Shown: positions 14,477 to 35,847 of the stretch, piece after piece
Layout of the letters: the number at the start of each line of letters is the position of its first letter
Position numbering within the stretch: position 1 is the first letter of the stretch
From: a virus
Length of the DNA stretch: 44,711 nt
Reading direction: 5' to 3' (one strand)
Virus record (IMG/VR): IMGVR_UViG_3300021960_000149
Span: 1 to 44,711 of that record
Made by a program: the position numbers and the translations under genes
Notes under the pieces: model-generated
The model's input: only the letters and a program-made list of their open reading frames with translations
What the model was told of the DNA's origin: nothing
The model's database searches: none

Positions 14477-17400
14477 CTATTTATTACCTTTCAACTCGTC
14501 AAGTTCTTGTCTGAGTTCGGTAATTTCACCCTTAAGATCCTTGATAGCCTCAATGAGTAGAGGTACAAGTTTTTCATACTTAACGGTCAAGTATTTATCA
14601 TTTCCAGGAGCAGGTGCTACTGCCTCTGGTAGAACTTCTTGAACTTCTTGTGCAGAAACACCGGAGTGTCTTACACCAGATTCGAATCCAATTTCTTGTC
14701 CTTTCTCGTTGAACTCATATGTAAATCCACTGAGTTTTAGAACTTTCTCGATCGCATTATCAATCAGTTCAATATTTGTTTTGAGTCTGATGTCAGAAGC
14801 AAAAGCAGTAATGTCCCCAGTTACTGAGAGGTTATTTGTAGATGGGTTGTAATAGATACCTGCATCTGTATATAGAACTTCGTTTGTTGAAGATCCATTA
14901 TTACTATTAACAAAAGTTATATAATGGTTTGCGTTTGTAGCAACAGAAACTGTCTTAATCTGGTCTGCGGAGGAAATGTTACCAGTTACGTTACCGACTA
15001 GGTTTGCAGTAATCGTTCCAGCGGAGAAGTTGCCACTTGCGTCTCTCTGTACAACATAGTTCGCAGTATTTGCACTTGTTGCGTTAATTGCAATAGTTTT
15101 ACTTGTACTATTATTAAATGCAGTATTAGAAGTAATAGTCAGTGGAGAAGAAACTCCAATACTGTATTGTAGTGGGCCTCTTAGTTGAGTTGCAGTTACA
15201 ATTCCTGCAGCAAAACCACCAAGACCATTTCTTACAACTACTGTACTTGCAGTATTAGTATCTGCGGTAGTGAATCCATCAAGTAAGTCAGCATTCAGGT
15301 TTGTAACTTTGGTTGTAGAAGTAACTTGGAGTGGTGCAGTTCCAGTTGCAACTGTAGAAACGTATCTCTGTGCGGTTGAAACACCAGAGAGATTTTGTTG
15401 TGTACCATTAACATGGGTAACAAAACCAACGTTTGCATATAGTCCGTTATTTGCAACCAGAGAAGTACTTGCTCTCAGGTGAGTGTATGTACCAGCTGTA
15501 CCAACAATAGAAGTAACAACACCTACGTTAATATAAGCAGTTAGTGGATCAGCAGAAGAAGCACCTCTTAAAGTTCTTGTTGTAAGAGTGGTAATAATAC
15601 CAGTGTTTACATATCCAAGTGGGGAGTGGAACTGTTGGGAGATGTTTAGTTTCGTTGTAGTTGTAGCAGTACCGGTTACACCCTCATAAACAAGAGTTGT
15701 TCCAGAAATTGTTGTAACAATACCAATGTTGATATATGCATTTGGTGTAGCAAAACTGGAGTTAACTCTGAATCCATTAAAGAATCCACTTGTACCATTA
15801 ACGGTGGTAATAGTTGCAGCAAAACCAGTTAAACTTGTAATGATGCCGACGTTGGAATAGAAGTTAGTTACTGTACCAACTTCGGACTTGAAGTTAGTTA
15901 CGATTCCAACTCCAATGTATCCAGTTCCAACTGATAGTGTTCCAATATCAACAGCAGTTGCATCAAGAGCAGTTGCAGTAACAAATCCTGAACTACACTC
16001 TAGAGCACCAACTTGAAGGGTTCCAGCAACAGTAGATATTCCTGGGAAAGTTGAATTGAATGAATTCTCAAACTTAACTACAGCATTAGTAAAGGTTGCT
16101 GCATATCCAGTAACTTCAAGGTTTTGGAACTGTGCAATCTTTCCAGCATTTGCATGTTTAATTGTGTAGGTGGAGCCACCAGTACCAACAAAGTTGATAT
16201 AATCATTTACCGTAATGTCATCATAGGTAACACCAGCGAATGTCTGGTTAGATGCGAATGTAACGGCGCCACCTACATAGAGGTTCTTCACTCTAGTGGT
16301 GCCATTGACCTCTAGGGCGTCCAGGAATGGGTATGTCGCATCACTTTGACCTACCCCGATCTGATCCAGCTTTAAGAAGTCTCTATTCTTGTCTCTGGAG
16401 ATCATACCCCATCTACGCCAATCACCATCAACAAATACGTGTCCAATGTGTCCAGTAGGATCAGGAGTTGAGATCAGGTTAACATCACCAGATCTTGCAC
16501 CAGTTGTTGGAGTAGAAATACCAACGGTGATTAGTTTTGCCTGAGAAGCAAGACCCTTAATGTATAGATCTCTGGTCTCTAATCCATTTTCAGAAGTGTT
16601 AGTTACTTTCTCGGAGAAGTTAACAGGACCATAGAACTGTGATGTTTGGTTGTTATTCTCACCACCCTCAACAGTTAGTCTTTCTTTGATAACAACGTCA
16701 TCGAATACACCACTGTTTCTCTTGGTTGTTTCGGTGATTGCGTCATCACCAAAGTAAGTAACAATAGGTGCCTCAATGACTTCTTCTTCACCAGTTGCAC
16801 CATTTAGTTTAGTTGCACCGTTATAGAACTCACCTCTGTCGTTCATACCAGTGTAAACGACAGTACCACCGTTCTGTTCTCTTGCCTGAGAAATGATAAC
16901 CTCAGTATCACTTAGAACGCGATCCTGTTTTACAGGCAAACCAGTTGAGTAGTTACCAGGGCCATAACCAAGATATTCAAATGTATGACCAGAAGCACGT
17001 AGAATAGAGTGTCTACGAATTTCTACAGGCAATACTCTAACTTTTTTAACAGCAGTTCCTGCTAAACTTTCTCTTGCACCAGTAGAGAATTGTCCTCTTA
17101 TAACATTTACTGAGGTTGGGAGTGGTTCTGCAACAACACGAACAATCTCTGCATTGATTGCTAGGTAATCACCCTTCTTAATTCCTGCAGATGATGTTAA
17201 TGGAACTGTTGTAGAAGTTGCACTTAGATCTCCATTGGTTGTTGTAGTTAAACCAGCATAAACATATGCGCCTCTTCCACCCAAGTTTTCTTCACCAGCA
17301 CCTAAGGCTTTACCTTGTGAAGAGAATCCAAACTTATGTACAGTTACTCCAGTTGGATTAATTGTATGGGCAATGGTAGAAATACCAGCAGTGAAAGTAA

Positions 17401-20400
17401 ATGTGTTTACTCCAACAACTTCACTTACTTGGAACTTAGTTCTGTAATTAGTTACAGTATTGATTCCAGTGAAGAATGTACTACCAGATCCTACTAAGTT
17501 AAATGTATTTCCTGGCAGTAAACCGTGAGCTCCAAGGCAAGTTACAGTTGCAATACCTATTTCCTTATTATAATTTAAATCACTTACAGATACTCCGTTG
17601 GAAACTAGATTTGCTATTGGATAAAGTGCATCATTTCTTGGATAATAGGTCAGTCCAATACCTGCATTTTCATTGTAAACTTCGATAGTTCTTGATGAAG
17701 GAACCGCAATAATTTTGAAAATACCATTTAGTTCTGGATTTAAGAAACCATTTAATTCAAGAGTATCACCAACGTTGTCAACAATTTCGGTAACTTCAAC
17801 AATCGCAGGATTTGTTGGAGCAGCAGCAAATCCTGGAGATACGGTTAAAGTGTTACCTACTCCGTATGCAGAACCAGCATCAACAATAGAAACGGAAGAT
17901 ACTGTATTTCCAACAGAAATCGTAGCCTTTACAGTGGCATTTCTTCCAGATAAGGAGTTATTGACAAGTTCTGTGGAGTATAGTATTGAAGAAATACCCG
18001 CAGAGTTGTTATAACCAACACCAGCAGCAATGAGGTTTATCGATTTAATCGAATTGAGGTTATGATCAATATCAGTATAGAGTGTAATGGTTGTACTACC
18101 AGATCCACTAATTGATGCACCAGTTACTGCATAACCAATTCTATTATTTTGTGAGAAGTAATTGAGAGCTTCTTTTGTAATTGAACCCCTCTTATCATTT
18201 GTTGAGATCTTTCCGATTGGAGATAGATCTGAATGGCTTGTAGTTGGTATTGGGTCTGGATTGTAATTATCTCTATCTTGTTGTGGGTATAAGTTTCTGA
18301 TGTCCTGATTGAATCTCTTTTCACTTAGACCATAACCTACATTAATGTCTGGAGAAATACTTCCAGAAATCGCAGTAATATTATAGATACCATCTTGTCC
18401 ATCAGTTCCTGGAATATGTTTCTTAATTTCAGAACTTCTATAGATGAACAGAGTATTTTTATATTTACTTCTTTGTACTGTTGGTAGAGCTTCGATTTGT
18501 TGTTGTGTAGCTCTCTGGTTTGTTAGGTTTCTAAAAGCACCAGGGTCTGCGGTTAATCCAGTAAAAGTAAAGGTTTTGGTTGATGGGACAGACGCTACCG
18601 TAAATTCTCCGTTATAAGGAACGGATGGGTCTCCAGTAGTGTTGTTTGCACTAATAATTCCCCTAACAATTACCCTATCACCAGGAACTAAATTATGTGG
18701 TATTTCAGTTTTAATTGTTGCTGTTCCAGATGTGTATATTGCATCAACAATTATTTTAGGGTTTCTAAGTTGAGTTACATCATCCAAATCTGAAGTCAGA
18801 TATGATACGGAACCAACACCAACATTCTTAGATTCTTGGATAATAAATCCATCTGTGGGTGGTCTTGCATTAACAAATTCCTTTGGAATTACATAACGCA
18901 TTTTATAAAGACGATCTTCCAGACCTCTGTTGTCTGTAAATCTTTGTACGAATGTTGCACCAGTAACATTTCCTAAAATTACCGTACCAATACCAACAAT
19001 TCCTTCATAAACTGTGTTGAAGAATGTTGCTGGATGTCCTAGAACATACCATTGTTTTTCAGTATCGTCATACTGAACTGGATGTCCATAATCTCCAGGG
19101 GCTTTATCTGATACTGAACTGATGACTTTAAGAACACCACCACCATTAGAGATACCAGTTACGGTATTACCAGATAGAGCGTCGTTTAGTGTTGGAGACA
19201 GTTTAATTTGGTTTGCGTTTAGTCCAGAAGTATATGCATAATAGACTTTTGCACTTTCAACGTTTGCAGGCATTTCACCTGTATCACTATAGATTCTTAC
19301 AGTTTCACCATTAAACAGTTGGTGATTTTCTGTCAGTGTAATGATGTTGTTAGATACACTATTGATACCAACGGCACGACCAACTTCATAGGTCTTTCTA
19401 GATATTGGGCCAATTCCTGTTGGAACAGGCATTAAAACTGGGGTGGAGTAAGTAGATTGTGCAGTACCTACAATGGTAGTTAGATATAACTTTTCATCTC
19501 TTCTTGCACCAATTCTGTATGAGTCAATCTGAATTGGTGGTGGAATATCCTTGGAGAAATAATCAGCTAACCAAAGTTTTTGGACAGTGCCAGTGTTGAT
19601 TATTTTGAGAGCATCAAGAGGCAACCAAGAAACAGCACTCTGTCTGAGATTTGGTTCTCTTGGTGGAATAACGTGAGTAATATAACCAACGTCGTCTCTA
19701 TCAAAGGATTCTGGTCTAAATCCAGTAGACTCTAGTGCAACTGCACCGAAGTTTGAGTTCGAGTTGGTGATAGATTGGTCACCACCTGTATCAGATACGA
19801 AGTGTTTTGCATAACCAATAGCAAACACAGAAACTGCCTGAATAATAGCGTTGTTACTGGTTTTGATGTGTATACTTTCATAGTCTGGTTTATAAATTGC
19901 TCTAGAGTTAATGTGTAGAGGCTTTTCAGATTCGGCAACAGTTTGGTTATCGTTGTAAATACCGGTCTCTTCATCATAAAGGATGAAAGCGTTATCATCT
20001 TTTTGTAGAGAGATACCTGTAAACTGAGCAACAAGCATGGACTTAAATCCAGTTGCCTTGCTACCATCAGCGTGCATACCATTAAGACCATATACAGATC
20101 TTAGGGTACATGAGAAGATATATGGAGATGCGGAAGAAACACTATCAGATTCTACTAAAACTGAAGAATTGATGAATTGAGAAATATCGGGAAGTGGATC
20201 TGTTGGAATTTCTGGAGCGGTATATGTAAAGGTGTTCTCATCAATTACATCGGATACAATAAAAGATCCATTATAGGAACTAATATTAGTAGTGATACCG
20301 GAAACTAAAACAGGAGTATCTTTAAATAATCCGTGTGGCTCTGTAGTATCAATTCTGATTGTACTTGTAGCAACAATTCCGTCACCAGATCTAATACTTG

Positions 20401-21274
20401 TAATACCAATACTATCTGCACGAAGATCGCCAACAATTCTAAATTCGTCTACTGATGGCTCAAAATCGGTTCCAGCTGCAGCAGGATAGTTTGCTAGACC
20501 TCTACCAGAAGTATCGCCATAGGCGTGAGTAATCTTGTAGTAATACATTTCAAGATCTGTTAGATCTTGAACTTCTGATCCCAAAATAGCTAGGTTTGCA
20601 CCATCAGCATATTCAAAGGTTGTTAATTTGTGGTGTGAGAAGTTTGGAACAACTTTTCTTACACTGGAATCCTTATAAGCAGCTCTATTGATGTCTGCAT
20701 CAAAAATAGAAAATGCAGTGAAGTAACAAGTACCCGTTACTCTGAAAATAGCAGATCTATCAACCTCATTATTCTCTGGATCCGGTACATACATTGGACG
20801 GATCTTTGTCTTTCTTAGATCCAAACCAACGATAGAAGTACCTCTAGGTAGAATTACACCACCTTCAACCGAGTTGAATTTGTGTAAATCATTATTTTCA
20901 TCGAAAATATCAAAATTACTATTTTCATTAAATTCTGTAATGGTTGCTCCTGAGGTTGTCCAACCAAAATTTAAATATCTTTTAAATACAGCACTTCCAC
21001 CAACATTTGCAATAGAATATCCAGGTCTATTATCAATATAGTGCGTTCCAGGATAAACCAGGATGGTTGTGGTATCAATCTTATCGTTATTTCTTCCTAC
21101 TTGATATGAAAATCTTGCGGCCTCAATCAAAGCCCTTTGAATAGTTCTAAAAGGTCTTGTTAAGGAGTTACCTCTATTTTCAAAACTATCAGTTGCGTCA
21201 AAGTCCGATGGGTTGACATAAAGGATATTACCTTCTGCATTCTTTAGGAAATTCTCTAATCTACTTAGGGGCAT
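14477..21274 (-). CDS. Giant virion fibre-like protein with S74 chaperone domain
   Basis: At 2265 aa this is the largest gene in the window. The N-terminus (NILYVNPSDFDATDSFENRG, then RPFRTIQRALIEAA) is the start of a pectate-lyase-like beta-helix fold. The middle holds many beta-repeat modules. At about residues 1700-1900 the motif N-[VIT]-G-[IV]-[IV]-T recurs in tandem. The last 106 residues are an intramolecular chaperone of endosialidase type (peptidase S74): DIRLKTNIELIDNAIEKVLK, GVSAQEVQEVLPEA, then a C-terminal helix. Self-cleavage is expected between Ser2160 and Asp2161 after trimer folding. It is probably a long tail fibre or a whisker-like structure. Confidence 0.8.
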   Translation of the reverse strand: MPLSRLENFLKNAEGNILYVNPSDFDATDSFENRGNSLTRPFRTIQRALIEAARFSYQVGRNNDKIDTTTILVYPGTHYIDNRPGYSIANVGGSAVFKRYLNFGWTTSGATITEFNENSNFDIFDENNDLHKFNSVEGGVILPRGTSIVGLDLRKTKIRPMYVPDPENNEVDRSAIFRVTGTCYFTAFSIFDADINRAAYKDSSVRKVVPNFSHHKLTTFEYADGANLAILGSEVQDLTDLEMYYYKITHAYGDTSGRGLANYPAAAGTDFEPSVDEFRIVGDLRADSIGITSIRSGDGIVATSTIRIDTTEPHGLFKDTPVLVSGITTNISSYNGSFIVSDVIDENTFTYTAPEIPTDPLPDISQFINSSVLVESDSVSSASPYIFSCTLRSVYGLNGMHADGSKATGFKSMLVAQFTGISLQKDDNAFILYDEETGIYNDNQTVAESEKPLHINSRAIYKPDYESIHIKTSNNAIIQAVSVFAIGYAKHFVSDTGGDQSITNSNSNFGAVALESTGFRPESFDRDDVGYITHVIPPREPNLRQSAVSWLPLDALKIINTGTVQKLWLADYFSKDIPPPIQIDSYRIGARRDEKLYLTTIVGTAQSTYSTPVLMPVPTGIGPISRKTYEVGRAVGINSVSNNIITLTENHQLFNGETVRIYSDTGEMPANVESAKVYYAYTSGLNANQIKLSPTLNDALSGNTVTGISNGGGVLKVISSVSDKAPGDYGHPVQYDDTEKQWYVLGHPATFFNTVYEGIVGIGTVILGNVTGATFVQRFTDNRGLEDRLYKMRYVIPKEFVNARPPTDGFIIQESKNVGVGSVSYLTSDLDDVTQLRNPKIIVDAIYTSGTATIKTEIPHNLVPGDRVIVRGIISANNTTGDPSVPYNGEFTVASVPSTKTFTFTGLTADPGAFRNLTNQRATQQQIEALPTVQRSKYKNTLFIYRSSEIKKHIPGTDGQDGIYNITAISGSISPDINVGYGLSEKRFNQDIRNLYPQQDRDNYNPDPIPTTSHSDLSPIGKISTNDKRGSITKEALNYFSQNNRIGYAVTGASISGSGSTTITLYTDIDHNLNSIKSINLIAAGVGYNNSAGISSILYSTELVNNSLSGRNATVKATISVGNTVSSVSIVDAGSAYGVGNTLTVSPGFAAAPTNPAIVEVTEIVDNVGDTLELNGFLNPELNGIFKIIAVPSSRTIEVYNENAGIGLTYYPRNDALYPIANLVSNGVSVSDLNYNKEIGIATVTCLGAHGLLPGNTFNLVGSGSTFFTGINTVTNYRTKFQVSEVVGVNTFTFTAGISTIAHTINPTGVTVHKFGFSSQGKALGAGEENLGGRGAYVYAGLTTTTNGDLSATSTTVPLTSSAGIKKGDYLAINAEIVRVVAEPLPTSVNVIRGQFSTGARESLAGTAVKKVRVLPVEIRRHSILRASGHTFEYLGYGPGNYSTGLPVKQDRVLSDTEVIISQAREQNGGTVVYTGMNDRGEFYNGATKLNGATGEEEVIEAPIVTYFGDDAITETTKRNSGVFDDVVIKERLTVEGGENNNQTSQFYGPVNFSEKVTNTSENGLETRDLYIKGLASQAKLITVGISTPTTGARSGDVNLISTPDPTGHIGHVFVDGDWRRWGMISRDKNRDFLKLDQIGVGQSDATYPFLDALEVNGTTRVKNLYVGGAVTFASNQTFAGVTYDDITVNDYINFVGTGGSTYTIKHANAGKIAQFQNLEVTGYAATFTNAVVKFENSFNSTFPGISTVAGTLQVGALECSSGFVTATALDATAVDIGTLSVGTGYIGVGIVTNFKSEVGTVTNFYSNVGIITSLTGFAATITTVNGTSGFFNGFRVNSSFATPNAYINIGIVTTISGTTLVYEGVTGTATTTTKLNISQQFHSPLGYVNTGIITTLTTRTLRGASSADPLTAYINVGVVTSIVGTAGTYTHLRASTSLVANNGLYANVGFVTHVNGTQQNLSGVSTAQRYVSTVATGTAPLQVTSTTKVTNLNADLLDGFTTADTNTASTVVVRNGLGGFAAGIVTATQLRGPLQYSIGVSSPLTITSNTAFNNSTSKTIAINATSANTANYVVQRDASGNFSAGTITANLVGNVTGNISSADQIKTVSVATNANHYITFVNSNNGSSTNEVLYTDAGIYYNPSTNNLSVTGDITAFASDIRLKTNIELIDNAIEKVLKLSGFTYEFNEKGQEIGFESGVRHSGVSAQEVQEVLPEAVAPAPGNDKYLTVKYEKLVPLLIEAIKDLKGEITELRQELDELKGNK
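14478..14485 (-). promoter_or_regulatory. T4-type late promoter AATAAATA
   Basis: AATAAATA on the minus strand overlaps the stop codon of the giant fibre gene and lies 36 bases before the ATG at 14441. Confidence 0.45.
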
Positions 21275-25131: not shown

Positions 25132-26787
25132 TTAACTGGTCGCAACCCCTGTAGTATTGGACGAGAACCTATTTGCACTTCTATAAGTGGTTGGTTCAAA
25201 GGGCGTTAAGTCAATATTGTTTAGAATCGCAACATCGGCAGTGAGTCTATTGATTTCCACTTCTGCATAAACTTTTCCTTGTAACATAGCAAAAGCTTCG
25301 CTTTCCAATTTATCTCTCAGAGTTCTTAAAACTCTGGCTTTATTCAGAGTATCAGTGATGCGAGGTTGGTTTCTTGCAATAATAGCGTCTCTACTTGATT
25401 CTGCTGCAGTAATTGCAGTATCTAAAGCACTACATCCAGTCAAACCAGGATTTGTTGGGCTTGTTCCACTATAATTGATACTATATCTGGATGGAGTACT
25501 TGTTGTAGTTCCAATTCCCGCAGTGCTTACAGTGATTGATTGTCCTTCTGTTGCATATGTAAATGTACTTGCAATTGCAACTCCAGAAGTGTTGTATGTA
25601 TATGTAATATATCCAGGCCACTGAGTTGTTCCACTATAATAAGTCACATATCCGTTTCCACATGCAGGTTCTGGAGAGAATTCGGGCCCAATAACTTCTT
25701 CCCACTGGAATGGTCCGGAAGAACTACCATTGTTTACTAATATTGCTGTGTGACCAAGACCAACTCTAGTAGTATCCATGATAGCAATAGTCACTGGATC
25801 TAATGGATTGTTGGTATAATCAAAAGTATCAAGAACAGATTGAGTTGTTCTAATTGCTGTGAAAAATGCGTCATTAGCATCAGCGTTTATGGGTTGATCT
25901 AATAATAATGATGGAAACTCCGACTTTATTCCCACAGTGAATACAGTAGTTGCAGCTCCAGTAGCTGGAGAACTTACAACTAAAGCAGGACCACTTGTTG
26001 ATGAAGATATGAAAGATCCTGTAGCATAGTTCCAAACTTCAATTGTATAACTTCCAGTGGAAAATCCAACGATTGTTGTTCCTGGTGTTAAAACTCCGAT
26101 CTTTTCTATGGAATCTCCTGTATTAATTCCAACAGTTGAACCTATTCCAGTGTGGACAATGATAGTTGATCCAAACGCAACAGTTCCACCAAACTCTACA
26201 GAGTTGATGGTAATTAAACTGACTCCGAATCCAACTATATCTGGTAGATTTGCAGAACTGTATAATTGCGGATTATCAATACTATCGGTGATAGTGTCAC
26301 CCAATAGTAGACTATTGGTTCCTCCGATACTAGTTACAGCAAGATTGGTTGCACCATATCCAGCACTACCAGTAAACTCTGCAACAATATTAGAACCATA
26401 GTCTTGGTTTTGTGGTCTTCTATAATACTTTACACCATACTTATTATAATCAATCTGAACGGCAGAATTTTTTCTTGCAGTATATGTGTAAGTACTATAA
26501 CTACTTGTCAATCCAACTTGATATGTGTTTGATGCAGTTAGTACCCAAATCAGATCAGTTTTGCAACCATTAGATATTCTGTTGTCATATGCAGTTTTTA
26601 CCGAACTTATCGCAACATTAATCTCATCTACCAATGGTAGAATTGATCTGTCCATATTTTCAATAATTGCATCGTATTGATCTATACGGACATCATAAAG
26701 TTGAAGTTGATCTCGGATCATCTCAACTTCAGCTCTTCTTTGTTCTAATTGTTCTTCCAGTTCTGCAACAAAATTAGTTGATATCAT
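25132..26787 (-). CDS. Virion structural protein with N-terminal coiled coil (551 aa)
   Basis: Residues 1-70 form a charged coiled coil (FVAELEEQLEQRRAEVEMIR). The middle is a series of Gly/Ser/Thr-rich beta modules (GATNLAVTSIGGTNSLLLGD), and the end returns to a helical, charged stretch (TLNKARVLRTLRDKLESEAF). This helix-beta-helix design is typical of trimeric virion fibres. It is the last gene of the hub operon and overlaps the previous gene by 14 bases. The exact virion part is unknown. Confidence 0.7.
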   Translation of the reverse strand: MISTNFVAELEEQLEQRRAEVEMIRDQLQLYDVRIDQYDAIIENMDRSILPLVDEINVAISSVKTAYDNRISNGCKTDLIWVLTASNTYQVGLTSSYSTYTYTARKNSAVQIDYNKYGVKYYRRPQNQDYGSNIVAEFTGSAGYGATNLAVTSIGGTNSLLLGDTITDSIDNPQLYSSANLPDIVGFGVSLITINSVEFGGTVAFGSTIIVHTGIGSTVGINTGDSIEKIGVLTPGTTIVGFSTGSYTIEVWNYATGSFISSSTSGPALVVSSPATGAATTVFTVGIKSEFPSLLLDQPINADANDAFFTAIRTTQSVLDTFDYTNNPLDPVTIAIMDTTRVGLGHTAILVNNGSSSGPFQWEEVIGPEFSPEPACGNGYVTYYSGTTQWPGYITYTYNTSGVAIASTFTYATEGQSITVSTAGIGTTTSTPSRYSINYSGTSPTNPGLTGCSALDTAITAAESSRDAIIARNQPRITDTLNKARVLRTLRDKLESEAFAMLQGKVYAEVEINRLTADVAILNNIDLTPFEPTTYRSANRFSSNTTGVATS

Positions 26788-27601
26788 CTTTCTCTATTTG
26801 TAATTTTTCAACGTCAATTCTTTCAGCATATACAACATAACTACAATTTATTGGTCCTCCTGCATTATTTACCACATTTATTCTTCTTCCCCACTCTATA
26901 TTTTTTACAAATAATTCTTGATAGAACTCGTGTGGTGTCAGATGTACGGTAATTGTTTCTGGATCAATTAAATTAACCCAATAATCAGGTAATTCTATCA
27001 CATTACTTCCTACAAGTTTACCTCTATGATAAACACCTATCTCTGGACCTTCAATACATGCATGAATTAGTCTTTTCCCTGGTTTGTTGGGGTGTGGAAT
27101 ATCAAACTGTTTAAACGGAGCAGCAACACCTGCAAATTGTCCGTAATTTGCCTTAATATAAGAACATAGAATTGCTTGTGCTTTAATAAGTTTTGCAGTA
27201 CCTACAGACTGCATTACTTTTGCACCAGCAGTCTGTTGGACTCCTGCTTTGGTACTTAGTCCCAAAGATGTTGCAAGGGCTTTCTTTACACTGATTCCAG
27301 TCTTAATAGTAGCTCCACTAGCATTAGTGATCGCAAATCTGTTGATAACACCAGTTAAATTGATGTTCCCGACAAAGTTAGAAATACCAGTAACTTCTAA
27401 AGATGCAGGTACTCCCAATCCAATAGGAGGACCAATCATACAAGCAGCTCTTGCAACACCAGCAGATGCAACAAGTCCAATATAAACAGGTCCGTTTAAT
27501 ACGGCAGTACCTGGGAAAATTCTAGAAGTTGCAGTTAAAAAAGAAGTATCTAATGCACCTACTACTAACTTATCACCAATATGTTGAATTGAAAATGTCA
27601 T
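26774..27601 (-). CDS. Virion structural protein with fibre-tip-like domain
   Basis: This is a 275-aa protein. The C-terminal half has FDIPHPNKPGKRLIHACIEG, PEIGVYHRGKL and IELPDYWVNLIDPETITVHL, a domain I have seen in many marine phage tail proteins, where it follows a fibre shaft. The N-terminal half is hydrophobic and beta-rich. It lies between the spike-like and coiled-coil genes of the hub operon. Probably part of the baseplate fibre or spike assembly. Confidence 0.7.
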   Translation of the reverse strand: MTFSIQHIGDKLVVGALDTSFLTATSRIFPGTAVLNGPVYIGLVASAGVARAACMIGPPIGLGVPASLEVTGISNFVGNINLTGVINRFAITNASGATIKTGISVKKALATSLGLSTKAGVQQTAGAKVMQSVGTAKLIKAQAILCSYIKANYGQFAGVAAPFKQFDIPHPNKPGKRLIHACIEGPEIGVYHRGKLVGSNVIELPDYWVNLIDPETITVHLTPHEFYQELFVKNIEWGRRINVVNNAGGPINCSYVVYAERIDVEKLQIEKDDIN

Positions 27602-27604
27602 CTA

Positions 27605-28162
27605 TCACTCCCCACATTCTAACCATTTTTTAAATTTTTGTAAGACTTTCATAATTTGACCCAAGAAAGATCCCTGTGTAATATCAGTAATTACTCCACC
27701 ACTAGCAGAGATACCAGCAGCAGTTTCTACAAAGTTTCCTCCAATTGCTGCAGTTGCTGTGGCTACTGTGTCAATATTAGTTCCCTTAAAAGTTTGTTTT
27801 GGAGCATTAGTTGCGATCTGTTTTGCAGCATTTATCGTAACTTCTCCTTCTCCATCATAAGCAACAATTCTTATATTTCTACCTCTAAGAATTATATCAC
27901 CATCCAAGGCATCTATTATTATATCTCCATTAATGGTTCGGATTACTTTAGCTGGTTCTCCCTCTTGACAATCCTCGCCACTTAATTCGTAAGAAGTCTT
28001 ATAACAAATATCAAACTTCATTCCGTCCGTAGTGTAGTGATATCCTTGATTATTGTCTGTAAACATCGAATAATCAATTGTCCTCCCAGCACCATCTGGA
28101 ACACCGGATTTAGTAGTAAACCCCGGTTTCTTTTCATAAAATTCTTTTGGTTGTTCTGACAT
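27605..28162 (-). CDS. Spike-like beta-helix protein
   Basis: This is a 185-aa protein. IRTINGDIIIDALDGDIILR and GRNIRIVAYDGEGEVTINA repeat in register like the triple beta-helix of gp5 C-termini and membrane-piercing spikes. An amphipathic C-terminal segment ends in WLECGE. It starts one base after the stop of the gp5-like gene, so the spike may be encoded as a separate subunit here. It is inferred to be the cell-puncturing needle or part of it. Confidence 0.6.
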   Translation of the reverse strand: MSEQPKEFYEKKPGFTTKSGVPDGAGRTIDYSMFTDNNQGYHYTTDGMKFDICYKTSYELSGEDCQEGEPAKVIRTINGDIIIDALDGDIILRGRNIRIVAYDGEGEVTINAAKQIATNAPKQTFKGTNIDTVATATAAIGGNFVETAAGISASGGVITDITQGSFLGQIMKVLQKFKKWLECGE

Positions 28163-28163
28163 T

Positions 28164-30398
28164 TTAGCAATCGTCGCAACAGAGGTTTACATTAATAATT
28201 TGGTCAGTTGTCAATCCAACTCTTGAGTTTGGATTATCTACAATAAATTGTGGAATATATCTTAGAACAGGTCTTAGAACTGCTCCTTGACCAGTATTAG
28301 TATTTATTGTTGGTACAGGAAGCTCTCTGAACTCTGACTGACAAGAACTTGCGGATGTTATTCCAATTATTGATCCATTCGGAGTTAAAATTGGAGAATA
28401 TGCACAAGACCCAATATTAATAATATCTCCACTAGTATAACCAATTCCTGGTGAAGTTATAACAATATTAGTTACTATTCCTACAGGAATTGAAGAAATT
28501 CCAACTCCACCTCCAGTCGTGCCTATTCCAGTTCCTCCACTTGTTGTACCTATTCCCGTAGTACCATCAGTCAATCCGACACCAAGATTGGTCTGACAAT
28601 AACCACTTCCTGGAGAAATGATATAGATCGATTCTATATTTCCGTTTTCATTGATTATTGCACCAGCTTGAGCGCCCGATCCATATCTTGAATTATCTAG
28701 AATAGTTATACTTGGATTTTGTGTAAATCCCCTTCCAGCATTTAAGACTCTTATTGCAAGTATGGATCCCCTTGTTGGTTCAATAACTGCTACAGCGGAG
28801 GCACCAATCCCAGTTCCAGTAATTACTACTTCTGGTGGGACACAACGATAGAACCTCACTCCAGGAGGCATAGGAGTCATATCTTCTTGAGATGTTGGAT
28901 TTACTATCCTTTCCCTACAATCTCTAAATGGAGTGGCTGCAGAACCATACATTGACAATAGACCTGTCCATTCATCTACAGAATCCCCAAGTCCACCTAG
29001 AATATCAATCTTACCAATTGCTTCTGCCCAATCATCGGTCTTGGGGAATTGAATTCCAGCAAATGGATCCCAAGTCTTTACTGGTTTACACTGCAGTCTA
29101 TCGCATTCTAGGAAACTTAAAATTTGACTTAGATAATTTACAGATCCTCTAATATAAGAGGTTATTTGTCCGATTCCTCCAGTTAACCAATCTATTCCAG
29201 ACAGAACAGAAGATAATCCACTATCAACAAGATCACCAAGTTTTTCTATTAAACTTGCAGCAACTTCTGATGCAGCACACTGAGGAATGTTGTTCGACTT
29301 TCCGATAAGTCCATTCAACATTCCCAGAATGAAATCTAATATTGGTCCAAAAAGTTTCTCAAAAATACAGAAGATTATGTTTATTATATTTTTTGCAGCC
29401 TCAGATATTTGTAACCATTGTGGTAATGGAGTTGTTGGTGCAAATGCTCTGAATAAACACCCAATTAATTTAATAATATTATCACGCATACCATTAATGA
29501 TAAATTTCATTATGGATGCGATTAATCTAGCAACTTTTTTTACCTTTTGACGTATATCTACAACTTTGTTTCTGATCGGATCAATGAATCCCAAAGCAGT
29601 TTTTTCCAATCCATTTACAAATCCTATGAATCCTTGTAAAGCTGCTTGGATTTGTGCAATGAAGTTATTCCAACATCCATTGTCTCCTTGAACTGGGCCT
29701 GCGTCATAAAATGCTTTAAGTGCTCCCACAGCAGAAGCGTCATCATAAAACAGTTGATCTTGTACTATTCCAGTGAAGTTGAAATTTGATCCAGAATTAG
29801 ATGATAACGGATTAAAATCAGTACTCAATCCGATTGTACCAGAAGTATCTACACCAAATGTTACTGCTGGTCCTGATGGTACTGTATTTGTTGGTGGTTG
29901 ATTTATTTTACCTTCTTCTGGTTTTTTTCTCCTGGTTGAAGATGGAGAAAAGGCTCCTTGCATACCAGTAAAAGGTTTGAATCTGGAACTTCTTTCACTC
30001 TTTACTAACTCTGGAGTTACTAAATTTTGAACAGAAGTGTTTCTGTAGAAACAGGATACTACTACTGGTTGTTGGGCCTCATCACCATCTAAGAAAAATC
30101 CTAAAACGGATTCTCCACCAACTAGGGTTGGTAATTTACCAAAACCACCCTGTCCTGGAGCACCATCTGAAGCACTAGTTAGAATGTGTGCCCAGGGAAG
30201 ATCCTCATCAGGAAGAATGTTTCCATCAAAAGTATGATAACCAATGATTCGGACTTTACATCTATAAGCCCAACTTCCTTTAGCGTCTACTCTGGATTTC
30301 TCATTACGCCAAACAGATGGATCAGCGACTTGGCCAATCCACCAAACGAATCCATCTTTTCCAAGAAAGTTTGACTTTAGTAAAGATTCTTCAATCAT
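28164..30398 (-). CDS. gp5: Baseplate hub protein, gp5-like OB domain, no lysozyme domain
   Basis: This 744-aa protein opens with DGFVWWIGQVADPSVW, YRCKVRIIGYHTFDG and LPDEDLPWAHIL, the OB-fold domain of the T4 gp5 hub family. T4 gp5 (575 aa) then has a lysozyme; here the middle is instead a hydrophobic, helix-rich segment (about residues 240-420) and the C-terminus holds G-x-G-[YF]-T-x2-P type beta repeats (GRGFTQNPSITI, GIGYTSGDIINI). The ATG overlaps the stop of cp12 (ATGA). It should sit on the hub centre beneath the gp27-like ring. Confidence 0.8.
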   Translation of the reverse strand: MIEESLLKSNFLGKDGFVWWIGQVADPSVWRNEKSRVDAKGSWAYRCKVRIIGYHTFDGNILPDEDLPWAHILTSASDGAPGQGGFGKLPTLVGGESVLGFFLDGDEAQQPVVVSCFYRNTSVQNLVTPELVKSERSSRFKPFTGMQGAFSPSSTRRKKPEEGKINQPPTNTVPSGPAVTFGVDTSGTIGLSTDFNPLSSNSGSNFNFTGIVQDQLFYDDASAVGALKAFYDAGPVQGDNGCWNNFIAQIQAALQGFIGFVNGLEKTALGFIDPIRNKVVDIRQKVKKVARLIASIMKFIINGMRDNIIKLIGCLFRAFAPTTPLPQWLQISEAAKNIINIIFCIFEKLFGPILDFILGMLNGLIGKSNNIPQCAASEVAASLIEKLGDLVDSGLSSVLSGIDWLTGGIGQITSYIRGSVNYLSQILSFLECDRLQCKPVKTWDPFAGIQFPKTDDWAEAIGKIDILGGLGDSVDEWTGLLSMYGSAATPFRDCRERIVNPTSQEDMTPMPPGVRFYRCVPPEVVITGTGIGASAVAVIEPTRGSILAIRVLNAGRGFTQNPSITILDNSRYGSGAQAGAIINENGNIESIYIISPGSGYCQTNLGVGLTDGTTGIGTTSGGTGIGTTGGGVGISSIPVGIVTNIVITSPGIGYTSGDIINIGSCAYSPILTPNGSIIGITSASSCQSEFRELPVPTINTNTGQGAVLRPVLRYIPQFIVDNPNSRVGLTTDQIINVNLCCDDC

Positions 30399-30610
30399 CA
30401 GTCGTCGTATACTCTACATTCTAGGGCGTCTGGATGGGTGTCGCAATATAACTCAAGTGGAGTTGGATCATGTTCATCCTCTGGATGAGCATCATGATAT
30501 TTTTCCAAATCAGTGAGTTCTCCCTCAATATGACGGCGCATTTGTGGAGAAATCGTTGCATCATCAAGGATTTCTTTATCTTTTTGAATGTGTTTTTGAA
30601 TGTTTTCCAT
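30398..30610 (-). CDS. cp12: CP12-like Calvin-cycle inhibitor
   Basis: This 70-aa protein ends with PLELYCDTHPDALECRVYDD. The C-x8-C pair and the ECRxYDD tail are the C-terminal signature of CP12, the small disordered protein that under oxidising conditions locks GAPDH and phosphoribulokinase together and slows the Calvin cycle. The N-terminal cysteine pair is absent and the AWDxVEE region is only loosely kept (GELTDLEKYHDAHP). It lies between the gp27-like and gp5-like genes with four-base coupling to gp5, so it should be made with late baseplate proteins. Known cyanophage CP12 is thought to steer carbon to the pentose phosphate pathway. Confidence 0.85.
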   Translation of the reverse strand: MENIQKHIQKDKEILDDATISPQMRRHIEGELTDLEKYHDAHPEDEHDPTPLELYCDTHPDALECRVYDD

Positions 30611-30618
30611 AGTATCAA

Positions 30619-31890
30619 TTAGTAAAGGCCGTAAGAATCTCTAACTAATTTTAGAGAGGTGACCATTGAATTTGGTTCAAAGTGGTGTCGCAATTCTTTA
30701 ATAAGATATTTTCCACTTTGTTGTTCATCTACTGTGGGACTTTTTGCTACAACTTTTGGAAATTGAGCTTCTATTACCCCACCAGCTTTCAAATTTATGT
30801 TACATGGTACTACCATATTTAGTGACTGAGTGAACAGCAAGTTATATCTTGAAAATGATTTTGCCATGTCAACATTATCTCTTCCAGAATCTCCTGCAAT
30901 ATCATTTGGATCCAAAGTTCCTTTATCACTTGTTCGATAAAGTATCCTTGACGGAGATTCTTCGAATCCGGATGGAATTACAAGTTCATCCTCATTACCA
31001 AGTTTACTCCTAATTTCGTTTTTTAGATAGTATGTGTACAAATCTAACGTATTTGTGTATAAATCATAAAAATACGTTTTGTTTGCATACATTCCAACTC
31101 TCAGAGACTTCATTAAGTCTACATTTTTTTCTAGATTATAATTTATAATACTAAAATTTGCTTGAGAATCATTAGATTCATATGCACTGTTATAGAAGTA
31201 AGTTGCAAGAGTATTACCAGTTCCAGATGTTGTCGCAGATACCATGCGATCTATACTTCTAAAATTAAATCCGTCTTTAGTCTCATAGAACAAATATCCA
31301 GCAACACCTCTTGCTTCGCTTCCTCTAGCTCCAGAGTTCCCCGTTGATGGAATTCCTTTAGGGCATAACCAAGTTAATATGTGGAATGGTTTTTTCTGGT
31401 TTCCAATAAAACTATATGCATTTGATGTTGACTCTATATTTGCACGATCAAACTTAGTGGTCTGTAAGTCATTTTGTAAGATATCTATAACATGTTGATC
31501 TATACTTACCTTCCCATATTTCTTTTGGCATCTTATAGTTTCATTCGTTAAACCTTCTCTCGAAACTAGGTGTAGGGTGAATTGTTCTGACGTACCATCA
31601 GAAGTATATCCACTGACTTTGTAAACATACATCGCATATTCATCTTCCAAGATGAAATCTCCTGCAGCTGTACTTACATCAATGAGTACTTTTTCGCCAC
31701 CTCTGATTGGGAGGGAGTTTAGAATGGGGTTACTTGATGTGACATCAATTGTCATTGTAACACAGGGCGATAAGATGTCTTCAAAGTAGTCCATTCCAAG
31801 AATACTGTTTGTTATATCAAGTCTTTTAGTGCCTTCTTTGGCTAAAATTTCTACTTGATTGTATTGTAAACTGGATACATATTGCGACAT
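30619..31890 (-). CDS. gp27: Baseplate hub protein, gp27-like
   Basis: This is a 423-aa protein. SILGMDYFEDILSPCVTMTI near the start and the swivel-type strands that follow (ITNSILGM, GEKVLIDVST, YAMYVYKVSGYT) resemble T4 gp27 (391 aa), the trimeric ring of the hub that connects gp5 to the tube. A second tube-like domain is suggested by SRYNLLFTQSLNMVVPCNIN and the final strand GKYLIKELRHHFEPNSMVTS. The position next to the gp5-like gene supports it. Confidence 0.75.
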   Translation of the reverse strand: MSQYVSSLQYNQVEILAKEGTKRLDITNSILGMDYFEDILSPCVTMTIDVTSSNPILNSLPIRGGEKVLIDVSTAAGDFILEDEYAMYVYKVSGYTSDGTSEQFTLHLVSREGLTNETIRCQKKYGKVSIDQHVIDILQNDLQTTKFDRANIESTSNAYSFIGNQKKPFHILTWLCPKGIPSTGNSGARGSEARGVAGYLFYETKDGFNFRSIDRMVSATTSGTGNTLATYFYNSAYESNDSQANFSIINYNLEKNVDLMKSLRVGMYANKTYFYDLYTNTLDLYTYYLKNEIRSKLGNEDELVIPSGFEESPSRILYRTSDKGTLDPNDIAGDSGRDNVDMAKSFSRYNLLFTQSLNMVVPCNINLKAGGVIEAQFPKVVAKSPTVDEQQSGKYLIKELRHHFEPNSMVTSLKLVRDSYGLY

Positions 31891-31893
31891 ATC

Positions 31894-33912
31894 TTACGTG
31901 CCCGAGAGATTGGTTAATAACATTGTCTTCATTAGATTATTTAACACTGCAGATTGGGGGGTAGAAGGCATGACCACTGTTTGTGATCCACCAGAACCAC
32001 TGGATATAACGACAGGCGCTTGTTGACCCTGACTAATAGGCATTAAAACAACACTTTGTTGTACTGTTGCGTATGAAGGATATTGTTGTACCTGTTGTGG
32101 TTTAGTCGCTTGTTGTGGAACTGATTGTATTTGAGATTGTGGCGTTACTTGTTGTTGGGCAGATATAATATCGGGAAGATTTCTTGCATATTGAACTGCA
32201 GCAGATGTTTGACTTCCAACAACCCTTCTTCCTTGAAGCTCACTACCAGCGATTCTTACTGCATTACTGTCCCCAACAAATTCTGCACCTTTGTATTTTT
32301 CTCTGATTGCCTTTGCACTATCCATCGTCAAGTGAAGTGGATCAGATGAACTATACATACCCTTCTCTACCTGAGCACCACCCATCTTTGCAGCCTCAAC
32401 CGAAGCTTTATGTGCAACAGCATATGCAGATTCATTTGGTGGAACAATAATTGGAGTATATCCTTTCCTCCTTAGATCATTGATAATTTGTAAAGTGTCT
32501 TGTTTTACTTTTTCTGGATCATTTGAAGTGTTGGTTCCCGTTGCAACAACTGCATATTTACCTCCAGTTTGACCCATTACCCCTGTTTGGGAAGTTACTT
32601 TTGGTTTTACTTGAACATTTCCACCGAATCTGAAATACTTATCATCATTATTTCCCGCTGAGGGATCTACTGAACCAGATCCTGCAGGTGCATATTCATA
32701 GTGTAGGTGTGGTCCTGTTGAATTGCCAGATCCGTATGCACCCTCTGCTCCTCCACTGTATCCTATTAAAGTTCCCGGTTCTATTTTTTGGCCTTGAGAT
32801 ACTGAAGCTCTACTTAAATGTAAATATCTTGTATGCGATCCATCTGTGTGGTCAATATAAACAGATAAATTGCCACCACTGTCCAATCCACTAAAAGCAA
32901 CTGTTCCTGGTTGAATAACACTAATCGGAGTTCCTACATTTACCGGATAATCTATTCCATAATGTTTTCTTCCCCAACGGTTACCATATGGTGAACCTCT
33001 TTTTGAACTTGGGAGTGAGCCACCAGATACCGAGTAGTCTCCAGTTTCTCCAGTTTGTTGATTGTTATTTACCAACTCTGGGGTTTCTGGTTCTAAAGGT
33101 TGCTCATCAGATTCTTCATCAGCATCAGTACCTTCATAATCCCCCGTAGTTGGTCCCAACAATCCCCTAGCAGTTATTTGTTCGAACCTATAAACCACTG
33201 AATCAAACTTTGACATTACATCGGATATCGTTACTTGAGTTGCAATTGCTGCCTGTTGTTTTTGTTTTACTTCCTGTTCTTTTAATTTTCTTTCCGTCTT
33301 TTCTTTTGCAATTCCTTCACCGGTTTCATATGCACGATCTCCAACCCAACCACCAGCCATGCCTCCAAGGGCACTACCTACCATAAAACCTACCCCAGGG
33401 ATGGGAATGAGTGCCTGACCTATTGCTCCACCAAGCAAACTTCCAGCAAGTGCTCCTCCAGCACCTGCAGCTGCTTTACCTACAGACTCTCCTTCCGCAA
33501 GACCAGTTGCAAAGTCCAATCCCGCAAAAACAGCATTAGCAATTCCCAAAGCTCTGATGCCACCAAATCTTACTTTAGCTCCTTTAGGTATTGGTTTTCC
33601 TGCAGGAGTATTTGGTTTTACTTTCCTATTTCCACCAAAAAAGTCCCCAACAAAGGATGCAGCATCAAGAGCACCACTTGCTAAACCACTCAGTAAATTT
33701 CCACTTCTACCAAAAGACGCATTTACATTAGCGGATAAAGCTTTTTTAAGTTTTTTCTCATTAAACTTAATGGATTCCAAACCTTTTGTTTGGACTTCCA
33801 TAAATCTCAAAAAATTAGCAAAAGAATTTTTACCTCGATTCAGTCCAGATTTGGAACGATTGAGTTTTACTATATTATTTGCTGAACTTAGTAGGGAAGA
33901 TGATATTTGCAT
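31894..33912 (-). CDS. Hub-associated M23 peptidase with SGNH-like C-terminal region
   Basis: This is a 672-aa protein. An N-terminal charged helix is followed by a glycine/alanine-rich hydrophobic stretch (about 130-195). The M23 (LytM) domain has HYGIDYPVNVGTP (near 317), TRYLHLS and GPHLHYEY (near 400), which give the zinc ligands of a D,D-endopeptidase that cuts peptidoglycan cross-links. Downstream lie GTNTSNDP (near 457), DPLH (near 522) and GDSN (near 545), the catalytic blocks of SGNH hydrolases but in the order III, V, I. The end is Gln-rich. It overlaps the GH104-like gene by one base. It probably opens the wall at injection. Confidence 0.75.
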   Translation of the reverse strand: MQISSSLLSSANNIVKLNRSKSGLNRGKNSFANFLRFMEVQTKGLESIKFNEKKLKKALSANVNASFGRSGNLLSGLASGALDAASFVGDFFGGNRKVKPNTPAGKPIPKGAKVRFGGIRALGIANAVFAGLDFATGLAEGESVGKAAAGAGGALAGSLLGGAIGQALIPIPGVGFMVGSALGGMAGGWVGDRAYETGEGIAKEKTERKLKEQEVKQKQQAAIATQVTISDVMSKFDSVVYRFEQITARGLLGPTTGDYEGTDADEESDEQPLEPETPELVNNNQQTGETGDYSVSGGSLPSSKRGSPYGNRWGRKHYGIDYPVNVGTPISVIQPGTVAFSGLDSGGNLSVYIDHTDGSHTRYLHLSRASVSQGQKIEPGTLIGYSGGAEGAYGSGNSTGPHLHYEYAPAGSGSVDPSAGNNDDKYFRFGGNVQVKPKVTSQTGVMGQTGGKYAVVATGTNTSNDPEKVKQDTLQIINDLRRKGYTPIIVPPNESAYAVAHKASVEAAKMGGAQVEKGMYSSSDPLHLTMDSAKAIREKYKGAEFVGDSNAVRIAGSELQGRRVVGSQTSAAVQYARNLPDIISAQQQVTPQSQIQSVPQQATKPQQVQQYPSYATVQQSVVLMPISQGQQAPVVISSGSGGSQTVVMPSTPQSAVLNNLMKTMLLTNLSGT

Positions 33913-35672
33913 TATCCGTCAACAATGTTATATACAATTCTTGAGTATAATGTAAGGAAATTATCTGCATTTCCAGAAGGCAAGAATGGTAGAGGTTGTT
34001 TACTACCTCCACCTCCACCTGCAACAACTGGTTGTTGTGATCCTTGTTGTCCTCCAATAGGAACAACGGTCACCTGAGGAGCACTGGAGACTGGGATTAC
34101 TGGTTGTGATACTTGTTGTGCAACTTGTTGTTGAGTTTGTTGTTGAGTTGATGCAGGTGTTATCCCTGGTTGTTGTACCGCAGCAGCTTGAGCAGTTGCT
34201 TGAGGAGTAGTGGGTGAACCTTGGGCTTTAACCAAATATTGATCATATCGTTTCTTAGCCTCGGCATAAGATATTTTTCTCATCCCTTCCCACGCCGGCA
34301 TACTCCCAGCTATTCTATAATTTTTTTCATCAAGTGGTTTATTGGGATCTCCACCAAGAGCCACTTGGTGAGCTAATGCAATTTTATCTTGATTTTCTGG
34401 ACTATACAAGTCTGTTGGTTTAAGACCTGCAGCAGCCATTACACTCTTCATTGTATCTGGGTGGAATTGATATCTACCAGCAGCATTTGAAGAAAATCCA
34501 CCATAACTAATTTTTCTTCCACCAAATCTTTGTGGCAAAACTCCATATGTTCCAGCTTTAGGAGCACTGTATGCCATATCATATACTTCTTGGAAAGTCA
34601 TCTTTGTAAGTTCTGGAACTTCTTCACCTCCGACGACTGTATTATATGAACCAGCTTCTGTTGATCCCACTGTCGCTAAGAATGCTTTTGCTTCTGGAGT
34701 ATCCGCACTAATTTGAGATGGATCTACAGTCCGCCCAGGTCCGGCGCCTGGTGCAGACGAAGGCGATGTAGATGGTTTTGCAGCAGTTGAAGATCCAGAA
34801 GATGAACTTGATTGTTTTTGTTCGGGTTTTGTGTTAGCTAAAGAATTTATAGCCCTAGAAAATCTGTCAAGAATTTCATTAAACTTATCTAACATTGGGC
34901 CAGACAATCCACCACCAGTTTCTGTTGGAACCGCTTCAACATCTTGACCAACTTTTGCAAGAGCACTTGTAGCAAGAGCCGCTCCACCTCCAGCTAGAGC
35001 AGCACCACCCAACATCATACCAGGGCGTCTTCTCATTGCTCTCATTAATCCGCCTGGAGCACTCTTTTTTAGTCCCCCACCAGGTACTCTAACATCTAAA
35101 TTTAATCCACTTCCACCAGCACTCGCAGTTGGTAAGGTAGATAATTGATCTACGATTCTAATTATTGTTCTTCTTATTTTTGTTGCAACATCAAATGTTT
35201 CTGCAAAAACTTTTTGCAGACTTTCCAAATTATTAGCTAAATTCTTTACGTTATTTGGATTAGCAAAGAATCTAATATAGTCAATCGCATTTCTATATAA
35301 TCCCAGGAAATTCGATAGAATTTTACTGGGATTTGCAGAATCTATTTTATCAACTTTCTCTCTAAATCTTTTACCTAAATCTCCTAATCTTTCAGTTACA
35401 AATTGATTTACGTTCTGATTAATAGATTGGATTCTATTCTCTACATTTGTAAGAATATTTGATGATAATGTCTTGATTATTGATCCCAAGTCTGGTGCCT
35501 GAGGAGCAACCGCTGCTGCACCTCTCTGAAAACCTACGATTTTATTAGCAGCACTTGCAACAACTGTAGAACCAAGTGGAGCCCCTCCAGAAATAAAATT
35601 CTGTACTTTTTGTGGTGTAACTCTTCTCTCTGGAGCTATAACTCCAGGATTAAGCGGGGAACTAATTGCCAC
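33912..35672 (-). CDS. Hub-associated GH104-like muralytic protein
   Basis: This is a 586-aa protein. Residues about 330-480 match the lambda R / GH104 lytic transglycosylase layout: KAFLATVGSTEAGSYNTV (candidate catalytic Glu in the STEAG stretch), NAAGRYQFHPDTMKSVM and LYSPENQDKIALAH. The N-terminal 200 residues are helical and probably anchor it in the baseplate. Pro/Ala/Gln linkers flank the enzyme. It overlaps the gp51-like gene by 11 bases and the M23 gene by one. It probably cleaves glycan strands during entry, as gp5 lysozyme does in T4. Confidence 0.75.
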   Translation of the reverse strand: MAISSPLNPGVIAPERRVTPQKVQNFISGGAPLGSTVVASAANKIVGFQRGAAAVAPQAPDLGSIIKTLSSNILTNVENRIQSINQNVNQFVTERLGDLGKRFREKVDKIDSANPSKILSNFLGLYRNAIDYIRFFANPNNVKNLANNLESLQKVFAETFDVATKIRRTIIRIVDQLSTLPTASAGGSGLNLDVRVPGGGLKKSAPGGLMRAMRRRPGMMLGGAALAGGGAALATSALAKVGQDVEAVPTETGGGLSGPMLDKFNEILDRFSRAINSLANTKPEQKQSSSSSGSSTAAKPSTSPSSAPGAGPGRTVDPSQISADTPEAKAFLATVGSTEAGSYNTVVGGEEVPELTKMTFQEVYDMAYSAPKAGTYGVLPQRFGGRKISYGGFSSNAAGRYQFHPDTMKSVMAAAGLKPTDLYSPENQDKIALAHQVALGGDPNKPLDEKNYRIAGSMPAWEGMRKISYAEAKKRYDQYLVKAQGSPTTPQATAQAAAVQQPGITPASTQQQTQQQVAQQVSQPVIPVSSAPQVTVVPIGGQQGSQQPVVAGGGGGSKQPLPFLPSGNADNFLTLYSRIVYNIVDG

Positions 35673-35847
35673 GATTTGCTGCCTGTTGTGCCTTTAGATT
35701 TTCTTCTTCAATATGTTGTCTCAATAGGGCAAGATAGATATCTCTTTCCCAAGGCATCAAATTTTCAATCTCAGTCAATGAGTATTTATGGAACTGCATG
35801 AGAGCGAAGTTAATACGATAATATGACTCAAGATCAATATGAGCCAT
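35662..35847 (-). CDS. gp51: Small baseplate hub assembly protein, gp51-like
   Basis: This 61-aa protein has MPWERDIYLALLRQHIEEEN, a motif I associate with the short gp51 or gp28-type hub assembly proteins that follow gp26 in cyanophages. The start is ATG 35847 (MAHIDLESYYRINF), two bases after the gp26 stop. A TTG two codons earlier would overlap that stop. T4 gp51 is much longer (249 aa), so equivalence is tentative. Confidence 0.55.
   Translation of the reverse strand: MAHIDLESYYRINFALMQFHKYSLTEIENLMPWERDIYLALLRQHIEEENLKAQQAANRGN

Follow-up and report, generated by a model that had tools for sequence, protein, structure and literature searches.

The 44,711-nt viral DNA stretch analysed here (positions 1 to 44,711 of IMG/VR record IMGVR_UViG_3300021960_000149; hereafter the window) carries a small frame between two tail genes, which a preliminary description made from the letters alone had read as a CP12 gene inside a baseplate hub operon, with only the C-terminal cysteine pair. 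The locus raises the question of whether this is a genuine CP12 gene, when in infection it would be expressed from such a position, and whether the missing N-terminal pair changes what the protein does to the host.

The cp12 gene and its tail operon

The frame (30398-30610, minus strand, 70 aa) translates as MENIQKHIQKDKEILDDATISPQMRRHIEGELTDLEKYHDAHPEDEHDPTPLELYCDTHPDALECRVYDD. The protein matches the Pfam CP12 family PF02672 with E=2.4e-13 and 51.1 bits (cut-off 22.7) over profile positions 3-70 of 70, i.e. along its whole length, and matches phrog_627 with E=3.4e-31, which confirms the CP12 identity first proposed. Its only cysteines are C56 and C65, a C-terminal pair eight residues apart with the tail ECRVYDD (ECxxYDD type). 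No cysteine lies ahead of C56, in agreement with the described loss of the N-terminal pair, and the AWD_VEE core motif of canonical CP12-N/C was not found in the protein. That cp12 is a real gene is far beyond chance, because relatives occur in 372 of 50,697 phage records, every one named as a cyanophage or marine virus, and purifying selection acts on it (median dN/dS 0.20, 101 pairs). The features of the locus are as follows.

30398-30610, minus: cp12, CP12-C form, 70 aa (Pfam PF02672 and phrog_627)
30401-30463, minus: C-terminal cysteine-pair stretch, last 21 codons of cp12 (matches to solved CP12 structures)
30619-31890, minus: gp27-like tail protein, 423 aa, directly upstream of cp12 (phrog_350, E=6e-102)
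28164-30398, minus: gp5-like baseplate hub / tail lysozyme, 744 aa, directly downstream of cp12 (phrog_1922, E=1.6e-103)
31894-33912, minus: tail protein with M23 peptidase domain, same gene run (Pfam Peptidase_M23, E=9e-23)
33912-35672, minus: muramidase-like protein that opens the run (part of it matches the endolysin family phrog_90, E=1.6e-15)
26774-28162, minus: two genes (185 aa and 275 aa) extending the run past gp5 with few-base gaps (phrog_26118, phrog_17490)
35783-35790, minus: candidate late-promoter motif CATAAATA, heading the run (motif scan; 93 b ahead of where the frame of its first gene opens)

The neighbours of cp12 bear out its location in a baseplate hub operon. The upstream family, phrog_350, is annotated 'tail protein', a name also carried by isolate homologues of the gp27-like gene, and the downstream family, phrog_1922, is annotated 'baseplate hub subunit and tail lysozyme'. 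Two details of the junctions needed correction: the stop codon of the gp27-like gene lies 8 nt, not nine, before the cp12 ATG, and the cp12/gp5 junction reads GAC-TGATG-ATT, a stop/start overlap of 1 nt in place of a 4-nt ATGA. A solved-structure search found nothing for the gp5-like protein, and for the gp27-like family it returned one non-significant match (E=0.075), none being convincing. In the S-T4 operon, a 'putative muramidase' likewise lies upstream of the gp27-like gene. As a side observation, the gp5-like protein (28164-30398) had no Pfam match, hence no detected lysozyme domain; of the two genes upstream of gp27 (31894-35672), one has an M23 peptidase domain and the other a stretch resembling an endolysin. 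The task of cutting the wall may have passed from the gp5-like protein to these separate genes.

To compare loci, cp12 regions were collected by similarity to four queries in four scans of viral contigs and from isolates, giving a non-random sample of 262 loci, distinct by cp12 plus 100 b upstream, and 225 distinct proteins. The counts leave out two coiled-coil false matches (L146, L147), a locus whose CP12 frame was not usable (L119) and two partial CP12 domains (L090, L091). Locus L002, identical to the window over cp12 and 3 kb on each side, was excluded as independent evidence. In this sample, cp12 follows a gp27-like gene in 227 of the 262 loci, with a gap of ≤15 b in 113 of them. The order gp27-like, cp12, gp5-like with few-base gaps is identical in S-T4, DSL-LC03, Sf-CH5 and S-SCSM2R, and S-RSM4 has it with slightly larger gaps; the gp27-like protein of the window shares at most 49% identity with those of the listed isolates. 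Unlike in the window, cpeT, tRNA genes, pcyA or small genes separate cp12 from gp5 in Syn9, Syn33, S-RIM2, P-SSM7 and P-SSM3. The P-HM2 gene adjoins talC, outside the baseplate operon, and that of S-TIM54 is also sited elsewhere.

The junction also occurs empty. In P-HM1, S-CAM7, S-SRM01, ACG-2014f and Rhizobium phage RL2RES, gp27 abuts gp5 or the gene in its place, and because phages with nothing between these genes exist, cp12 is best described as cargo at the gp27/gp5 junction. P-HM1 and S-SRM01 carry cp12 elsewhere in the genome. S-CAM7 (L404, 32785-32859) and ACG-2014f (L406, 31141-31212) have a frame elsewhere that matches the CP12 C-terminus below the Pfam cut-off, covering the last 24-25 profile positions; these may be diverged or trimmed CP12. 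Placement of cp12 in the baseplate operon is already known and common to isolated phages, and a 2010 genome survey reported talC and cp12 at variable positions, near gp5 among them (PMC3037559).

The window protein also resembles phage CP12 from isolates (T4-GC 337; PHROG 627; S-RSM4, Syn9, P-HM2, S-T4) in length range, C-terminal signature and C-only pair, with full-length identities of 60-76% (S-T4 75.7%, Syn9 65.7%, P-HM2 60.0%). It is an ordinary cyanophage CP12, one more example of a known gene.

Promoter motifs and timing of transcription

The motif NATAAATA is the late promoter of cyanomyoviruses (PMC2984593). In the window, the candidate late promoter CATAAATA sits 5.2 kb upstream of cp12. 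Across the first 85 loci, the core ATAAATA was about 15 times as common on the sense strand as on the antisense one, and of 39 comparable loci 21 had an intergenic late motif at a distance of 4-5.3 kb upstream of cp12. Since the window has no element of its own before cp12, the simplest origin for cp12 RNA is read-through that starts at the head of the operon.

The comparison splits cp12 loci into those with their own late-type promoter motif and those embedded without one. Neither NATAAATA nor CTAAATA was found 18-46 b upstream of cp12 in any of the 113 tight loci (gap to gp27 ≤15 b), as opposed to 123 of the 149 non-tight loci: 87/105 with a gp27 gap of 16-100 b, 30/35 not behind gp27 and 6/9 with larger gaps. 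Where present, the motif clusters at -27 to -33. In the tight loci, the 18-46 b stretch is coding, and the absence of the motif there is about what chance predicts from the background rate; the informative side of the contrast is the strong presence in non-tight loci. Tightly packed cp12 loci do without the usual private promoter motif of cp12, a mildly new observation. Among named isolates, Syn33, S-RIM2 and P-SSM7 have a NATAAATA motif right before cp12, which the window lacks. Shine-Dalgarno sequences did not discriminate, being present in 17/31 tight and 12/17 open loci, and in the larger set 68/113 tight loci compared with 78/114 gave no clear difference.

A motif alone does not fix timing, because P-HM2 cp12 carries NATAAATA and is nevertheless expressed as a middle gene (PMC5082946). 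Its motif lies at -31 and overlaps TTGACA. In both P-HM2 (L151:2960-3000) and locus L242, cp12 is preceded by a late motif that shares bases with a perfect TTGACA (TTGACATAAATAC), and this overlap could explain middle-class expression.

A competitor to late read-through is a hidden early or middle promoter inside gp27, from which cp12 would be made with the middle genes as in P-HM2. The measured middle expression of that gene (PMC5082946) speaks for it, as do the overlapping early and late promoters that cyanophage middle genes are thought to use (PMC2984593) and the frequency of promoter-like sites in the AT-rich DNA here. However, sigma-70-like sites in the region occur at the shuffled expectation (36 found, 32.9 expected), none is listed on the minus strand between 30611 and 31753, and the tight loci, 0 of 113, have no NATAAATA or CTAAATA at 18-46 b upstream. 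A CTAAATA inside gp27, present within 400 b of cp12 in 21 of 47 loci, was considered as a cp12 promoter and rejected; the window copy, which starts at 30822 or 30823, falls on Ser-Leu-Asn codons, and coding can explain the motif. We consider a hidden promoter unlikely.

The lack of an own motif, the tight gaps and the late motif at the operon head strengthen the predicted late timing of the window cp12. The same prediction, truly late expression, extends to embedded cp12 loci in general and sets them apart from P-HM2, the one measured case in the literature consulted. We tentatively suggest two regulatory classes, though the odds are somewhat against so clean a division: cp12 genes with their own NATAAATA or CTAAATA about 30 b before the ATG, which can be middle (P-HM2), and promoterless genes embedded between gp27 and gp5, which would be truly late. 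The usual model has phage CP12 diverting carbon into the making of nucleotides. What supports it is expression in the middle period in P-HM2, from a cp12 that lies outside the baseplate operon and has its own promoter motif. If the two classes hold, the shut-off of carbon fixation by CP12 would in many cyanophages come after most DNA synthesis and would not feed it. The embedded-type phages S-T4, DSL-LC03 and Sf-CH5 are sequenced named isolates, so timing is directly testable.

The C-only form and redox control

The C-only pattern is uniform among the sampled phages. The C-terminal cysteine pair is kept in 262/262 distinct loci and 225/225 distinct proteins, the N-terminal pair occurs in 0/262 loci, and AWD_VEE in 0/225 proteins. 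Both cysteines, P60 and E64 are invariant across the 225 proteins; a single case, L312, carries one more cysteine, placed in the linker directly ahead of the C-terminal pair.

A genome-collection scan with the phage protein as query returned a Nostoc homologue as its sole match, and host CP12s were gathered by family search. In 26 CP12 proteins from cyanobacterial genomes of 1.6-3.0 Mb, a size range from which we take the label "picocyanobacterial", the N-terminal cysteines and AWD_VEE were missing in 26/26. In the other cyanobacterial genomes, AWD_VEE was present in 33/33 CP12 loci and both N-terminal cysteines in 32/33. Picocyanobacterial host CP12 (CP12-C of Stanley and colleagues; classes in PMC3906501) resembles the window protein in having the C-terminal pair only, no AWD_VEE and the same kind of N-terminal stretch; identity between the two is 51-54%, and they differ by two extra residues ahead of the RRH/VRH position. 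The canonical CP12-N/C of Synechocystis, Thermosynechococcus and plants shares the C-terminal GAPDH-docking stretch, and identity to two canonical cyanobacterial CP12s is 30-37%. In a tree, a branch with SH-aLRT 99 set 84 rows of phage and small-genome host CP12 apart from canonical CP12; the 71-column alignment gives little resolution within the group. Previous work noted the likeness of cyanophage CP12 to the C-terminal region and eight forms of CP12 among cyanobacteria (PMC3906501), as well as the lack of the N-terminal pair in S. elongatus CP12 (PMC9623430).

Alignment with host and phage CP12 thus found the C-only form common to both. It is the form of the host lineage and no modification by the phage, because the same form is found in all of the small-genome cyanobacterial CP12s. 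The missing N-terminal pair is then explained without a phage-specific story.

The retained C-terminal stretch (C56, C65) is the counterpart of the loop by which CP12 docks on GAPDH in solved structures; CP12 peptides seen in such GAPDH complexes (6gfo, 3zdf, 5nmu, 6kez, 3b1j) can be aligned with the final 21 residues of the window protein. An AlphaFold model of the protein has a mean pLDDT of 92 and helices at 4-15, 22-41 and 51-58. Its four best PDB fold matches are CP12 chains from GAPDH-CP12 and GAPDH-CP12-PRK complexes, with weak scores (E=0.03 and probability 0.85 for the best). Binding and inhibition of GAPDH by the oxidised protein would be in keeping with the resemblance to the docking peptide (6gfo, 3zdf, 3b1j) and the weak fold matches. 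Both PRK-docking features of canonical CP12, the N-terminal pair and AWD_VEE, are lacking.

In Synechocystis, replacement of the N-terminal pair (delta-CysN) gave near wild-type growth on glucose and wild-type-like NAD(P)H kinetics, and replacement of the C-terminal pair gave behaviour much like CP12 deletion (PMC9623430). A second Synechocystis study found that the N-terminal pair, AWD_VEEL and the C-terminal pair all contribute to glucose catabolism (PMC9514657). Thioredoxin A reduces the C-terminal disulfide, whose midpoint potential is -257 mV; the pair is 59% reduced in light and 17% in the dark (PMC13214033).

The preliminary description had proposed that a form without the N-terminal pair could give inhibition that depends less on the light state; on this reading, the loss would make a version of CP12 peculiar to phages. 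The N-terminal pair is truly absent from the window CP12, and the confident two-helix N-terminal part of the AlphaFold model (H4-15, H22-41) might fold without a disulfide. However, the C-only pattern is universal in the sampled phages and in the small-genome hosts, hence no phage adaptation, and the C-terminal pair that docks on GAPDH and serves as the main switch in vivo has been kept and can be reduced by thioredoxin (PMC9623430, PMC13214033). The proposal is not supported, and we regard such a form as improbable. Phage CP12 is instead expected to stay redox- and thioredoxin-sensitive toward GAPDH, because it retains exactly the pair that switches. With the switch intact, a large late dose of CP12 could still inhibit GAPDH in light, because about 40% of host CP12 remains oxidised in light in Synechocystis.

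Proposed role in infection

We propose that the window encodes an ordinary phage CP12-C that is probably co-transcribed with the late baseplate genes and would block host GAPDH. The Calvin-cycle-inhibiting role given in the preliminary description matches the accepted inference for phage CP12. A C-only cyanophage CP12, related to that of small-genome (picocyanobacterial) hosts, would have been inserted at the gp27/gp5 junction of the hub operon. Its RNA would most likely arise by read-through from the late (NATAAATA) promoter about 5.2 kb upstream, and its translation by coupling to its neighbours. The C-terminal disulfide hairpin would then plug the active site of the host GAPDH that uses NADPH. 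NADPH would no longer be drained by residual carbon fixation, and carbon could pass through the pentose phosphate pathway. The C-terminal pair would keep the protein thioredoxin-sensitive, and inhibition in light could persist through the oxidised fraction if the late dosage is high. The family, the conserved cysteines, the gene order and the motif pattern are direct observations; co-transcription, coupling, GAPDH inhibition and the effect of dosage are inferred from them.

Several published results count against the proposed late CP12-C. One is the middle expression of P-HM2 cp12 in spite of its NATAAATA motif (PMC5082946). S-RSM4, which has the gene order of the window, reportedly ceases CO2 fixation some 2 h after infection (PMC10452541), sooner than a purely late product would be expected to act; talC, gnd and zwf are also present in this phage, however, and a CTAAATA motif lies at about -28 of its cp12. 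S-PM2, without CP12 (PMC3037559), also stops CO2 fixation, at about 4 h (PMC10452541). A further one is the role of the N-terminal pair and AWD_VEEL in glucose use in Synechocystis (PMC9514657).

It is very improbable that CP12 travels in the virion alongside the hub proteins and enters the cell by injection, to act within minutes of infection: cp12 is encoded between two hub/tail genes and late-class proteins are present at assembly, but gene order is weak alone, cp12 lies elsewhere in P-HM2 and S-TIM54, and the Syn9 record calls the upstream gene a structural protein, but not cp12 (gp17).

Three further genes of the window may be mentioned. The gene at 21406-22017 matches a Mom-like DNA modification protein family (phrog_1384, E=1.6e-29) and is weakly related to HNH endonucleases too, and that at 24002-24583 matches a PHROG named DNA endonuclease V (phrog_274, E=2.9e-25). 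A single tail fibre gene of 2265 aa spans 14477-21274, and parts of it match many different tail-fibre and baseplate families.
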